Below, in pieces: positions 38,480 to 44,824 of a DNA stretch of 64,000 nt. Numbering within the stretch: position 1 is the first letter of the stretch; every line of letters begins with the position of its first letter. The DNA lies in assembly GCA_034190085.1 (NCBI GenBank), contig JAXHTS010000002.1:1-64000 (forward strand). The letters run 5' to 3'. The notes below the pieces were generated by a model that saw nothing but the letters and a program-made list of their open reading frames with translations, had not been told where the DNA came from and searched no databases. The position numbers and the translations under genes are program-made. This stretch comes from Spirochaetota bacterium. GTDB lineage: Bacteria > Spirochaetota > UBA4802 > JAFGDQ01.

Positions 38480-38833
38480 ATTCCTTTATTGAATCAATGA
38501 TATTATAAAGTCTATAACTAATTTTTATCTTTTTATCAAGATACAACAATAGCGTTTAACTTAATAGTGTAAACCCTAAAAAATCTGCCTATATAATTTC
38601 TCGAAATCCCCATATGATAGGATAGGATTGTACTTAATAATATTCTTCGCTATGTAGGGTAAGGATAGCTCGTGGAATACTGGATAAAAGCTGAGTTGAA
38701 AATACATGTCTAATTATTAAAGGCTCTCATCTTCATTAGTTTTCTCCAACAAATCAGAATGCCTTGCTTCTATTCAAATATCTATCCTTCTTTATTTACT
38801 TTATTCGATAATGTTACTCTATTTTCACTTTTA
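38480..38833. other. Non-coding stretch between cheY and scpA
   Basis: About 350 AT-rich bases. Probably contains the terminator of cheY and the promoter of the scpA operon, but no single site stands out. A plus-strand open frame across this spacer overlaps the end of cheY and has no ribosome site. Confidence 0.4.
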
Positions 38834-39193
38834 TCAAGAGAGAGCCTTTTCAGCAGCTTTTTGAAGTCTTTCCGGAGGGAATGGTTTTACAACAAAATCC
38901 TTTACTCCAAGCTTAATGGCCTTAGTCAAAAGATTCTCCTGACCAAGAGCTGTTACCATTATTATCTTCGCCGAGGGGTCCATGGTTAAAATATCCTCAG
39001 CAGCTTCTATGCCATCCTTCTCCCGCATTGTAATGTCCATGGTAACCAAATCTGGTTTTATCCTCTTATAGAGCGACACTGCTTCATTCCCATTTTCAGC
39101 CTCTCCTACTATTTCATGCCCTTTGGGTACAAGTGCATCTTTTACAAGAGTTCTCATGAACTTAGCGTCATCTACAATTAATATTTTTGCCAT
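38834..39193 (-). CDS. cheY: Chemotaxis response regulator CheY
   Basis: The 119-residue single receiver domain has the acidic pair Asp8-Asp9, the phosphorylation site Asp53 (VTMDITMREKDG), the switch Thr in VTALGQ and the Lys in VVKPF. No output domain follows, so it is a CheY-type regulator that would carry the signal from CheA to the flagellar switch. It lies 281 bases downstream of cheB on the same strand and is likely part of the same locus with its own promoter. The last 10 residues resemble CheY of spirochaetes and Thermotoga type. Confidence 0.92.
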   Translation of the reverse strand: MAKILIVDDAKFMRTLVKDALVPKGHEIVGEAENGNEAVSLYKRIKPDLVTMDITMREKDGIEAAEDILTMDPSAKIIMVTALGQENLLTKAIKLGVKDFVVKPFPPERLQKAAEKALS

Positions 39194-39474
39194 AACCTAT
39201 CTCCATAAAAAATTATATGCATTCTCAGATACAAGTCACATGAATCTTAGTTTATACATACATGTATTACTCTGATGCAGTAAAATCATACGCCTTAATT
39301 GCATCACGTTCATTAAAATAATTATGACACCTAAAATAAATTAAAGACTTTCTTTAAATGTATATATATAGTCGTTAATCCTTCCAACCCTTACAATCAG
39401 ATCAAAAACTTAGATCTATTCTATTTGAAATCAAAATGCTCAATCTTCACCAGTAAATAAAGATATCACATGGT

Positions 39475-40539
39475 TTACAGTTGTTCAACTATTTTTTTAG
39501 GTATTTCTGATAAAGAAACGACTTCATCAATCGATCCCATCTGAACAGCAACCCTATTCATACCATAAACAACCGAAGTCTTTTCATCCTGAGCAATAGT
39601 ATAGCCACCCTTTTCTTTAACGTGTGAAATACCATCCGCTCCATCCCTACCCATTCCTGTCATAATAACACATAAAGCATTGCTTTCACATGTTTCAGCC
39701 ATTGAATTAAAGAGAACATCAATTGATGGCATATGGCCCGATATCTTCTCACCTTTATAAAGCCTTATTATATTTCCACTTCTGTGATTCTCAAGCACCA
39801 TGTGTGAGTGTCCCGGAGCTATATAACCAGAAGCAGGTAGTATTTTGTCACCATCTTCAGCTTCTTTCACGTTAAGCGACGAACTCTTATTTAGTCTTTC
39901 AGCAAAGGCATTTGTAAACCCCTCGGGCATATGCTGCACAACTAATACTGGCGATGGAAATCCATTGGGGATATCTTTGAATATCTTCAACAATGCAGCA
40001 GGACCGCCTGTTGAAGTGCCTATTCCAACTATCTTCTTTGTGTCATCCTTGATAGACTCTTCCCTTAACTTAACATTCTTACCCTTCCTATCCCCTTCAC
40101 TTATCGACTTGACCTCTTCATGAGGAACTGTAACCTTACATCCATAAACAGATTTTACTTTTTCTATTAAAAGATTAGATATTTCTCTAGTAGACAATGA
40201 AACATTACTAGATGGCTTAGGAATAAAATCCACAGCCCCATACTCAAGGGCTTTAAAGGTTGCTTCCGCGCCATGCTGGGTTAAAACGCTCATCATGATA
40301 ACAGGTTTTGGATTTGTCCTGATAATGTTACGCAAAGACTCAAGCCCATCCATAATAGGCATCTCAATATCCATCGTTATAACATCTGGATTGAGTTCAT
40401 TATTCCTATAGATAGCAGTTTTCCCATTATTGACAGTGCCTACAACCTCTATATCCGGATCACTTTCCAGAATATCACTGATTATCTTTCTTACAAGCGG
40501 GGAATCTTCAACAACAAGCACCTTGATTTTATTAGGCAT
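39475..40539 (-). CDS. cheB: Chemotaxis protein-glutamate methylesterase CheB
   Basis: CheB removes methyl groups from (and deamidates) chemoreceptors. The 354-residue protein has an N-terminal receiver (Asp57 in VITMDIEMPIMDG) and a C-terminal esterase. The catalytic Ser lies in GIGTSTGGPAALL, the His in VVQHMPEGFT and the Asp in MTGMGRDGADG. The linker is short and charged. Its start lies two bases after the cheA stop. No cheR methyltransferase and no receptor gene lie in the window, so the opposing enzyme is encoded elsewhere. Confidence 0.97.
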   Translation of the reverse strand: MPNKIKVLVVEDSPLVRKIISDILESDPDIEVVGTVNNGKTAIYRNNELNPDVITMDIEMPIMDGLESLRNIIRTNPKPVIMMSVLTQHGAEATFKALEYGAVDFIPKPSSNVSLSTREISNLLIEKVKSVYGCKVTVPHEEVKSISEGDRKGKNVKLREESIKDDTKKIVGIGTSTGGPAALLKIFKDIPNGFPSPVLVVQHMPEGFTNAFAERLNKSSSLNVKEAEDGDKILPASGYIAPGHSHMVLENHRSGNIIRLYKGEKISGHMPSIDVLFNSMAETCESNALCVIMTGMGRDGADGISHVKEKGGYTIAQDEKTSVVYGMNRVAVQMGSIDEVVSLSEIPKKIVEQL

Positions 40540-40541
40540 TG

Positions 40542-43500
40542 TTACCTCATATCTTCAATAATCTTTTTCAGAGCTTCTGTATCCATGAACACTAACATCT
40601 TGCCTAAAACACTGTCATCATCATCAAAATAAAATTCCGTATCCATCAACAATGAATAATCTCCTGATATCTTATTCTCCACAAGTATTGAATTCATTGT
40701 AGATTGAATAAAATCATGTACCACACTAGGAACGGATGGTCTAATCGCTAATCCTGTTTTGTCAGATAATACATTTAATATTGAACATCCAACTATATTA
40801 GTTAACTCCTTTAATGCTGATCCTCCATCCTCATCCAATTCTTTGGTTTTACCACTTTCAGTGCCATAGAGCATATCAATTAACTCAAACCCAATATCTT
40901 CACTCAAAAGAAAAAGTATAGCCCCTTTAATGTCTCCAACAAGAATGAAATAAACACCAATATAGACGCTATCAATCTCACCAATTATTGAGGGCATATT
41001 ATTCAACGGAATAATTTTCACTTCCGGAATCGAAAGGGCAATTTTTTTATTTAGTATACTGGAGAGTGATTCAGCCGCATTTGTTATACCAATATTTGCG
41101 ACTATTTGAATTTTCTGTATATCCCTTTTATCTATCTGAAGCGAATTCATTATATCTTCATTCAATCTATCATCATCCAAAGTACGCTCAATATTTGTCT
41201 GCAACTCCTCCTTAAAATCGATCAATGCCTCTTGTACCCTTTTCTGAATATCTTCATCCTCGACCTCAATAACTATGGAATCATCTAAGGCTCCATCACC
41301 ATCCTCAATAACCTGAGACTTATGAATTTCTAACTCACCCTCCTCCCTGATTGTTGGCATTCTCTCTTTCTCAGATAAAGCATCTTCCGTTTTCTCCTCA
41401 GGATCGCTTTCTTGTTCTTCAACAATTCCAATATCTCTTTGATCAGAGCCAGTCTTCTCTTCCCCTATTGTCTGGGAATCAAAGAGCATCACCCTCTCAT
41501 CTTCTATTTTTTCCGATCCAACAAGTCCCTTATCCAAATCCCCATCACCTTCTACCTTAGGAATTTCTAAAACTTGTTCAACTTCAAAATCCTCCTTCTC
41601 AATTACTCTCTGCTTGGACAACCTCTCCTCATTAGAAATAACATTGCTTATCATAGATTGGACATCAAGGATTAAGCATATGCTCCCGTCTCCAAGAATT
41701 GAAACACCCGAAAGGCCCTCAATATAGGTATAATTCTCTTCAATTGATTTGATAACAATTTCCTGCTTTCCTTCTAAGGAATCAACAATCACTCCAATTT
41801 TTCGATTACCATATCCAACAACAACAACAGAAATCCTCTTATCAGTATCAAGATCCCTCTCTATCCCAACAAAGTCACTAAGCCTTATTAATGATAATAT
41901 TTCACCTCGGAGATTTATTACCTCATATCCCTCAATTGTAGTAATATCTGAATAAAATATTTTTATTGTTTCAACTACATCGGGCAAGGGAATAGCGTAC
42001 ACCTCATCTTTTACTGTAACCATAATTGCAGGTGTAATGGCGAGCGTTAGTGGAAAGGTAAGAATAAATTTTGTCCCCATTCCAACCTCAGTTTCAATTC
42101 TAACATTTCCACTCAATTCATTAACGATCTCTCGCACAACATTCATGCCTACTCCACGGCCTGATATATCAGTGACAACATCAGAAGTGGAAAAACCTGG
42201 AGAAAAAATAAAATCATAGATATCATCATTATCCATGTTAGCCAAAATCTCATTGGTTGTAATTCCTTTCTCTAAAGCCTTGCTCTTGATCTTCTCTATA
42301 TTTAAACCCCGTCCGTCATCACTTACCTCAACTATAATCTGATTTCCTCGCTGGTAAGCACTAAGGGTTATTGTAGCCTCTTCTGATTTTCCCAATTTTC
42401 TCCTTTCCTCTGGCGATTCCACTCCATGATCAATCGCATTTCTCATTAAATGCATCAGGGGTTCACCAATTGCATCAATCACCTTTTTGTCTAGCTCTGT
42501 ATCCTCTCCCTTAAGATCCAACTTTACCAATTTATTAAACTCCTTTGAAAGATCTCTAACCAATCGCTTAAACCTAACGAAAATTTGACCAATAGGGAGC
42601 ATACGAGTTTTCATTATTCCGCTCTGAAGGTCCTTTGCAATTCGGGACATCTGATCCATTCGATTCTTAAACTCACTTATGAGCGTCTTACTTATTTGAA
42701 CATCCTTCATCTCCTCATAAAGTTTATGAAATCCGGAATTTGATATTACAAGTTCACCTACATTATTTAACAGCATATCTAGTTTATCTACCGAAACCTT
42801 CACTATTTTTATCCCGGGCACCCTTTTATCCCCAGTCTTAGCAGTTTGTTCAATTTTTTCATCTTCTTCATCAATAATCTCTTCTTTGCCAATATTCGTC
42901 TTATCCTCTCCAAGAGGATCTAAAGAATCCTCACCTTCCCCTTTTTCAGTCTCCTCAACAAGTGTTTCATTCCCATGAAATCTTAATGCCATCTTTTCAT
43001 TCTTTTTTATAAGACTAATCTTCCTCATATCAATCCGGCTTATAAGATCCAGTTCACATGCCCTTCTCAACTCTTCTACAGATTGATCAGTTAACAGAAT
43101 AACCCTAAAGACATTATTGTTCCATTCATCATTTAATTCGTCCTCTGAAGGCATAGTCTTCATTATATCGCTAATCTGTTGTAGATTATTTATAATGAGT
43201 TGTGATTTTACCCATTTCATTGGAGCGGAGGGATTTATATAGATTGCTATCTCAGAGCATGATCTCCCAGACCTCAATCCTTTATGTATAAGCTTTCTCT
43301 CATCAGGAGTTAAATTAGTTTCGAGTTCCTCCTTTTTTTCTGATATTACTTCTCGCCTTTCATAGGTAGTATCCCCGGTCCCTTCAGCAACCTCTTGAAT
43401 CCGATCCATAATCTCCTTCAAGTTCTGATTAGGTTCTTCACCAGCAGCAACTGAAGAGATTATTGAGTTTATAACATCAAAACACTTAAATAAAACGTCA

Positions 43501-43763
43501 ACAATATCAGGACGAATCTTCATTGTCCCATCCCGAATGCCCTGCAGGAGGTTTTCCATTTTATGTGCAAGATCGCTAAGATCACACAAACCTACGAAAG
43601 CTGCGGAGCTTTTTAGAGAATGGGCTGTTCTAAATATGTTATTAATAGTATCACTATTATTAGGATTTTTTTCGAGTTCTAAAAGATTTTGATTTAGCTC
43701 CTGAAGCTGTTCATCTGCCTCTTCCAAAAATAATTCCTGATATTCACCAATGCTAAATGTCAT
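40542..43763 (-). CDS. cheA: CheA histidine kinase with C-terminal CheC-type phosphatase domain
   Basis: At 1073 residues this is far longer than usual CheA (about 650-750). Order: Hpt with phospho-His48 (RTAHSLKSSA); a helical region about 150-270 in the P2 place; dimerisation about 318-385; HATPase about 385-570 with LMRNAIDHGVE and DDGRGL; CheW-like domain about 600-735; acidic linker about 736-860; then a CheC-like double repeat. The second repeat carries the full phosphatase consensus S982-x3-E986-x2-N989-x22-P1012. The first keeps N890-x22-P913 but has Ile887 instead of Glu. The frame is continuous. CheC removes phosphate from CheY; here it may do so within the kinase complex (inference). 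cheW is upstream, cheB two bases downstream. Confidence 0.95.
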   Translation of the reverse strand: MTFSIGEYQELFLEEADEQLQELNQNLLELEKNPNNSDTINNIFRTAHSLKSSAAFVGLCDLSDLAHKMENLLQGIRDGTMKIRPDIVDVLFKCFDVINSIISSVAAGEEPNQNLKEIMDRIQEVAEGTGDTTYERREVISEKKEELETNLTPDERKLIHKGLRSGRSCSEIAIYINPSAPMKWVKSQLIINNLQQISDIMKTMPSEDELNDEWNNNVFRVILLTDQSVEELRRACELDLISRIDMRKISLIKKNEKMALRFHGNETLVEETEKGEGEDSLDPLGEDKTNIGKEEIIDEEDEKIEQTAKTGDKRVPGIKIVKVSVDKLDMLLNNVGELVISNSGFHKLYEEMKDVQISKTLISEFKNRMDQMSRIAKDLQSGIMKTRMLPIGQIFVRFKRLVRDLSKEFNKLVKLDLKGEDTELDKKVIDAIGEPLMHLMRNAIDHGVESPEERRKLGKSEEATITLSAYQRGNQIIVEVSDDGRGLNIEKIKSKALEKGITTNEILANMDNDDIYDFIFSPGFSTSDVVTDISGRGVGMNVVREIVNELSGNVRIETEVGMGTKFILTFPLTLAITPAIMVTVKDEVYAIPLPDVVETIKIFYSDITTIEGYEVINLRGEILSLIRLSDFVGIERDLDTDKRISVVVVGYGNRKIGVIVDSLEGKQEIVIKSIEENYTYIEGLSGVSILGDGSICLILDVQSMISNVISNEERLSKQRVIEKEDFEVEQVLEIPKVEGDGDLDKGLVGSEKIEDERVMLFDSQTIGEEKTGSDQRDIGIVEEQESDPEEKTEDALSEKERMPTIREEGELEIHKSQVIEDGDGALDDSIVIEVEDEDIQKRVQEALIDFKEELQTNIERTLDDDRLNEDIMNSLQIDKRDIQKIQIVANIGITNAAESLSSILNKKIALSIPEVKIIPLNNMPSIIGEIDSVYIGVYFILVGDIKGAILFLLSEDIGFELIDMLYGTESGKTKELDEDGGSALKELTNIVGCSILNVLSDKTGLAIRPSVPSVVHDFIQSTMNSILVENKISGDYSLLMDTEFYFDDDDSVLGKMLVFMDTEALKKIIEDMR

Positions 43764-43803: not shown

Positions 43804-44337
43804 TCATTGATCCTCTCTTGGCTTCGATTCCTCGAATAGCATATTATCTAAACTCAAGATTACAATCAATCTATCTTCAACCCTTCCAACTCCACTGATA
43901 AACTCCTCCGAAACGCCCTCAATTAGTTCATTAGGCTGATCAACATTATTTTGCGGAAGTCTTACCACATGAAGAACTACATCTACAATGAGACCCACAA
44001 GTTTATCATTTGTCTCAACTACAATTATTCTCGTTGAGTCTGTAATCTCACCCTTCTCAAAGCCAAATCGCTCCCGCACATCAACAACAGGGATCACATG
44101 ACCCCTTAAATTAATAACCCCTCTAATAAAGGATGGAACATTCGGTAGTCTTGTGATATCTGCTATTTTCAATATCTCATGTACTGAAAGTATATCAATT
44201 CCATATTCTATTTCATCTAACAATAAAAATGTAACAAGTTGAATTACGTTCTCATCAACTAATGACTCTAAATCTTCCTCGTTATCGCCTTTCTCAATTA
44301 TGCCGGTCTTATCATTTTCTACTTTAGATATACTCAT
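43804..44337 (-). CDS. cheW: Chemotaxis coupling protein CheW
   Basis: The 177-residue adaptor bridges CheA and chemoreceptors. After an acidic, non-conserved N-terminus of about 30 residues comes the CheW fold: LVTFLLLDEIEYGIDILSVHEILKIADITRLPNVPSFIRGVINLRGHVIPVVDVRERFG. VVETNDKLVGLIVDVVLHVVRL and FISGVGRVEDRLIVILSLDNML follow. The ATG at 44337 is preferred to a TTG three codons upstream. It is the first gene of the cheW-cheA-cheB set, 40 bases before cheA. Confidence 0.95.
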   Translation of the reverse strand: MSISKVENDKTGIIEKGDNEEDLESLVDENVIQLVTFLLLDEIEYGIDILSVHEILKIADITRLPNVPSFIRGVINLRGHVIPVVDVRERFGFEKGEITDSTRIIVVETNDKLVGLIVDVVLHVVRLPQNNVDQPNELIEGVSEEFISGVGRVEDRLIVILSLDNMLFEESKPREDQ

Positions 44338-44824
44338 ATGGATCAACCTAATTTATTAAACATTTCGCTATGTCTTATAATCGATTATATCTTTTTATAT
44401 ATGACAAAGGAACTAACCAACTACAAGACTAAGAGCTATAATCACTTAATACTCATTCGTAGGAATGAATTCATGACAACCCCTATGCCCCCCCTCAAAC
44501 GCAGCGAATGATTTCATCAATAATTACAACAAAAAAAGGCATTTAATAAATACCTGAATAAATATTATTTTTTAGAGTAATTTAGAAACTCACATAACAC
44601 GACAGGATAACCCTAAATATCTATAAGATAAAGAGGTAAATATATTTTCATACTAAAATTACTAGCGATAATAATGTTATAGCATATTATCTCCCATTTC
44701 AAGCATTTTTAGATAATAATCAACATTAAGTGAAAGTAGCATGTAACTTCTTTATCTATTTTTATTGATCAGGATTGTGAAGATGATGTTTGATTCATAA
44801 TCTTTATCGCAAATACGCTATAGA
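44338..44824. other. Non-coding stretch, about 490 bases
   Basis: Between glpQ-like and cheW. AT-rich, apart from a C-rich patch near 44485. It probably contains the promoter of the chemotaxis operon. I see no gene, no tRNA and no clear hairpin. Confidence 0.4.

Follow-up and report, generated by a model that had tools for sequence, protein, structure and literature searches.

The question raised by this locus is whether a CheA chemotaxis kinase carries its own CheY-P phosphatase. The window, that is, the whole stretch of 64,000 nucleotides that was analysed (contig JAXHTS010000002.1 of the Spirochaetota assembly GCA_034190085.1), contains a single uninterrupted frame of 1073 aa with no internal stop at 40542–43763 on the reverse strand. 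Its Pfam and NCBIfam domain matches identify it as a cheA-cheC fusion gene. The same strand carries cheW (43804–44346; a 180 aa ORF from TTG, with an ATG start 3 codons in; Pfam CheW 8.8e-36), cheB (39475–40539; 354 aa; Pfam CheB_methylest 2.8e-66; sequence ATGAGGTAACAATG), and cheY (38834–39193; 119 aa; Pfam Response_reg 1.4e-27; gene order conserved). The cheY product is presumed to be the substrate of the kinase and CheC halves alike. The ATG of cheB lies 2 bases past the cheA stop, and the two genes are thus probably translationally coupled. The genes cheR and cheD are absent from this che cluster. Unannotated gaps with no recognised gene flank cheY, at 39194–39474 (about 280 bases) and 38480–38833 (about 350 bases), and an Rfam scan of the window gave no match.

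The kinase half is that of a complete CheA. The Pfam matches follow the order Hpt, P2, H-kinase_dim, HATPase_c, and CheW, then CheC and CheX, and all of them exceed the curated cut-offs. The Hpt domain (P1, residues 8–97, 43473–43742, Pfam 8e-19) has the phospho-accepting H48 and the motif TAHSLKS from residue 46. It is followed by the response-regulator-binding P2 domain (residues 171–244, 43032–43253, Pfam P2 1e-11), the dimerization domain (P3, residues 320–386, 42606–42806, Pfam H-kinase_dim 1e-16), the ATPase/kinase domain with N, G1, and G2 box motifs (P4, residues 435–573, 42045–42461, Pfam HATPase_c 1e-17), and the CheW-like domain (P5, residues 580–706, 41646–42026, Pfam CheW 1.7e-29), all encoded on the reverse strand. 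The kinase motifs H48, N box, DDGRG, and GRGVGM are complete, and the Hpt domain with its phospho-histidine and the dimerization, HATPase_c, and CheW domains in order place the protein in the CheA family. After the CheW-like domain comes an acidic linker (residues ~713–875, 41139–41627, reverse strand), with 33% Asp/Glu over residues 713–868. Across 93 fused proteins the linker measures 19–485 aa, with a median of 149.

The initial annotation had placed two CheC-type repeats behind the CheW-like domain and the acidic linker, and profiles, a PDB search, and a fold model confirm this. The CheC domain comprises residues 876–1072 (40548–41138, reverse strand). The NCBIfam model CheC_Thtogales (NF041093) covers it entirely at 2.7e-32 (model positions 2–199 of 201), with a score below the equivalog cut-off of 250 bits, and Pfam CheC (4e-9) and CheX (1.6e-7) both exceed their curated cut-offs. 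A sequence search of the PDB finds CheC of T. maritima (1xkr) at 2e-20 with the single sequence and at 1e-39 with a profile. The AlphaFold2 model of the domain has a pLDDT of 92 and a pTM of 0.88, and in Foldseek it superposes on 1xkr (5.8e-19, TM 0.86), with FliY and CheX ranking after. The profile search and the fold prediction, both proposed earlier as checks, thus point to CheC, and the full-length two-repeat fold with an E-x2-N site in the second repeat is that of the CheC family. CheX as the identity of the domain is ruled out by domain length and scores; the CheX profile matches residues 941–1016 only, whereas the CheC model matches 876–1072. FliY does not fit either, as Pfam gives no FliN match and the chain ends at the CheC domain.

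The two repeats differ in their catalytic residues, which are as first read. The second-repeat helix (residues 978–1003, 40755–40832, reverse strand), helical in the model, contains the predicted phosphatase site E986 (codon 40806–40808) and N989 (codon 40797–40799), and the motif read directly is S982, E986, N989, and P1012. The first-repeat helix (residues 879–904, 41052–41129, reverse strand) keeps N890, and the repeat also keeps P913, but I887 occupies the catalytic Glu position and the site is predicted to be inactive. Conservation was assessed in 93 distinct fused proteins from 19 family-level groups with a median pairwise identity of 25%, a count of sequences and not of independent events. 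No column other than those of E986, N989, and P1012 is invariant. All of the proteins (93/93) have the second-repeat E/N pair, while an intact first-repeat pair is found in 0/93, the Glu place there being mostly V, S, L, or I. By comparison, both sites are present in most of the stand-alone CheC sequences retrieved for this phylum. This suggests that selection keeps exactly one catalytic site in the fused proteins. Such a contrast between repeats of the same proteins is not easily accounted for unless one site is under selection. A chance motif match is ruled out by profile, fold, and conservation.

The same pattern bears on the idea that the domain is a non-catalytic module for CheY binding or oligomerization. 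The catalytic site of the first repeat has already been lost, and this repeat is strongly worn in the groups f22, f38, f41, and f46, as such a module would allow. A bare scaffold needs no E and N pair, however, and the second site stays invariant in all 93 proteins amid general variation, which makes this explanation improbable.

The fusion is widely kept among spirochetes. Relatives were sampled from 393 genomes of the phylum, 46 of them in the order of the window, and the CheC-type domain is present in 44 of these 46; the assemblies of the other two are fragmentary. With few exceptions, namely contig-end fragments and one frameshifted locus, the copies in the order belong to a single long CheA frame. 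In the UBA5368 assembly (L086/L114), frame breaks split both cheA-cheC and scpA, and are probably sequencing errors. A scan of genome contigs with a closer alignment (A2) gave 26 loci, of which 25 belong to metagenome genomes labelled Spirochaetes, Spirochaetota, or Spirochaetia and the remaining one is labelled just 'uncultured bacterium'. One of these loci, that of UBA5368, falls within the order of the window. A paper that places its Spirochaetota butyrate degraders in class UBA4802 lists the families UBA5368 and UBA5550 under Spirochaetota (PMC13248872), so the window probably belongs to class UBA4802. A search with a profile built from the fused domain (A5) adds CheA-borne copies in f9, f10, f11, f19, f22, f27, f28, f29, f34, f38, f41, and f46, with f19 as a weak, long-branched case. 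In all, 19 or more family-level groups of Spirochaetota have the fusion. From the order of the window to groups f34 and f11, the genes follow one and the same order, cheW-cheA·cheC-cheB-cheY-scpA. An assembly chimera or frame-joining error could be imagined for a genome in 86 contigs, and absence of the fusion from all relatives had been named as its sign. Independent assemblies of dozens of species share both the fusion and the gene order, so an artefact is very nearly out of the question.

In four of these groups (f22, f38, f41, and f46), Pfam gives no CheC above its cut-off in the members scanned. At seven loci there (L053, L054, L055, L056, L057, L058, and L061), CheAs of 925–1347 aa have a C-terminal CheC missed by Pfam, with the second-repeat E/N intact. 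A profile of this far group (A4) matches the near group at 9e-34 and T. maritima CheC at 2e-16, and a far-group model folds as CheC (pLDDT 88; Foldseek 1.5e-9, TM 0.71). Because profile and fold identify CheC in groups that Pfam misses, the fusion extends beyond the Leptospirae already surveyed. In several families it may have escaped notice through the failure of domain libraries to recognise the domain. In a tree of CheC sequences the fused copies cluster together, with weak root support (30). Two genomes have two distinct CheA-CheC fusions each (L148 and L052 in G002; L042 and L074 in G193). One CheA of f11 (L047) has two P2-like matches; P2 duplication is reported to be general in Borreliales, with several independent events elsewhere (PMC10782961).

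The initial annotation knew of no described case of the fusion, and this does not hold. In a survey of 2023 (PMC10782961), Berry, Andrianova and Zhulin describe F1 CheAs of Leptospirae with a fused CheC/CheX and suggest that such proteins act as both kinase and phosphatase; literature searches on CheA-CheC fusions gave no description beyond theirs. The protein of the window resembles the Leptospirae fusions in joining a classical CheA to a CheC/CheX-type domain, and the domain order matches. Group f34, in which one genome has a gene for the marker LipL32 and which is therefore probably leptospiral, shares both the fusion and the gene order with the window. In contrast to the Leptospirae survey, the window belongs to another order, and the domain here is a full two-repeat CheC with one predicted live site, found in 19 family groups and in some of them below the Pfam cut-off. 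Stand-alone T. maritima CheC (PDB 1xkr/2f9z) has the same fold and two-repeat plan and aligns over the full length with a TM-score of 0.86, but it is a separate protein with E/N in both repeats, whereas the domain of the window is kinase-tethered and has E/N in the second repeat only. CheX, as in the B. burgdorferi CheX-CheY complex (PDB 3hzh), also has one E/N site per chain; it is a shorter protein, and the longer domain of the window is a much closer match to CheC. CheA3 of Rhodobacter sphaeroides (Porter et al. 2008, cited in PMC10782961) is likewise a CheA-family protein with a phosphatase activity directed at a CheY, an activity that for the protein of the window is predicted. No CheC domain is reported for CheA3, and it lacks a working kinase domain of its own, unlike the CheA of the window.

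Free phosphatases accompany the fusion. It had been suggested that the fused domain perhaps replaces free CheC, CheX, and CheZ. CheZ is indeed missing, with 0/46 genomes of the order having it. The genome of the window, however, has at least three CheD and three stand-alone CheX, the latter with no che genes close by; CheX and CheD are each present in 46/46 genomes of the order. Replacement of the free phosphatases is ruled out by the presence of CheX and CheD in the genome. A second che cluster of the same genome (L138, G000 contig C72, 5971–12493) comprises a CheA that lacks the CheC domain, together with CheY, CheW, CheD, CheR, a second CheD, and CheB, and its cheR is flanked by the two cheD genes. 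Contig C51 has one more CheD. The F1 and F8 systems have been assigned to Leptospirae by Muok et al. 2020 (PMC7666581), and the two che clusters of this genome are in line with that assignment.

The best reading of a full-length CheC, one invariant E/N site, an intact kinase, inherited synteny, the known E/N chemistry, and the proposal of Berry et al. 2023 is a bifunctional CheA, in which the tethered CheC domain would act as a single-site CheY-P phosphatase opposing its own kinase. Its probability is put at roughly 60%. Of the earlier suggestion of a kinase with its own phosphatase, what is supported is a CheC-type domain with one complete predicted site on a complete CheA, the first repeat having lost its Glu. 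The five N-terminal domains would phosphorylate CheY and CheB within the receptor array, and the CheC domain, on its flexible acidic linker, would reach CheY near the array and dephosphorylate CheY-P close to its site of production with the one active site, E986 and N989. In CheC, CheX, and FliY it is established that the Asn orients the water and the Glu bridges to the lysine of the receiver (PMC3035606). By analogy with the CheX-CheY complex, N989 would orient the attacking water and E986 would form a salt bridge with the active-site lysine of the receiver. The CheY-P signal would then be brief and spatially confined, and free CheX would work elsewhere. CheZ of E. coli is held at the receptor array and is all-helical, unrelated to CheC, and unfused. 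Like array-held CheZ, the fusion of the window would put CheY-P removal beside CheY-P production. Free CheX in the same genome means that a tethered phosphatase is not strictly necessary.

Alternatively, the tethered CheC may be mainly a dock for CheD gated by CheY-P, with phosphatase activity secondary. High CheY-P would bind the domain, CheD would be drawn off the receptors, and kinase activity would fall, which places the CheC/CheD/CheYp feedback inside the kinase. For CheC of B. subtilis, dephosphorylation has a minor role, with an activity 6% that of FliY, and CheD binding matters more (PMC3513319); conservation of E/N could therefore mark CheY-P sensing and not signal removal. CheD is present throughout the order and in 32/33 other sampled fusion-bearing genomes. 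At five loci in the four families f9, f10, f27, and f28 (L036, L037, L051, L052, and L148), cheD lies directly behind cheA-cheC, within about 20 bases or overlapping. In other bacteria, cheD behind free cheC is the classic order. The arrangement at these loci suggests that the fused domain derived from a CheD-partnered CheC. D1017 (40713–40715, reverse strand) aligns with D143 of T. maritima CheC and, from the alignment, is a possible CheD-contact position; the CheD-contact Asp of B. subtilis CheC is D149 (PMC3513319). All sampled members of the order of the window, and the four cheD-adjacent families, retain an Asp aligned with D143, whereas f34 and f11 mostly have Gly at this place; the Asp is lost in f34, f11, f22, and f38, while E/N is lost nowhere. 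The role of this Asp as a CheD contact is putative. The cluster of the window, moreover, has no cheD of its own, its CheD genes lying elsewhere in the genome. Docking as the main function is the chief rival reading, less probable than the phosphatase one. The phosphatase and docking readings are not exclusive, and E/N conservation alone separates neither from the other.

The architecture is already known in kind. What is new is its much wider spread, the invariance of one site against the loss of the other, and the position of cheD directly behind the fusion gene in some families. These give a wider and sharper base for the one-paragraph suggestion of the 2023 survey, a kinase and an opposing predicted phosphatase in one chain. 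Tentatively, the fusion may be an old and widely kept spirochete kinase-borne CheC with one surviving predicted site, missed by domain libraries, which would tie CheY-P removal and CheD adaptation into the kinase and give an array with in-built negative feedback. The fusion is under strong selection across a phylum that swims by internal flagella. Because one chain has all the parts and evolution switched off one of two sites, it offers a clean test of where CheY-P is removed, and of CheC as phosphatase versus CheD sink.
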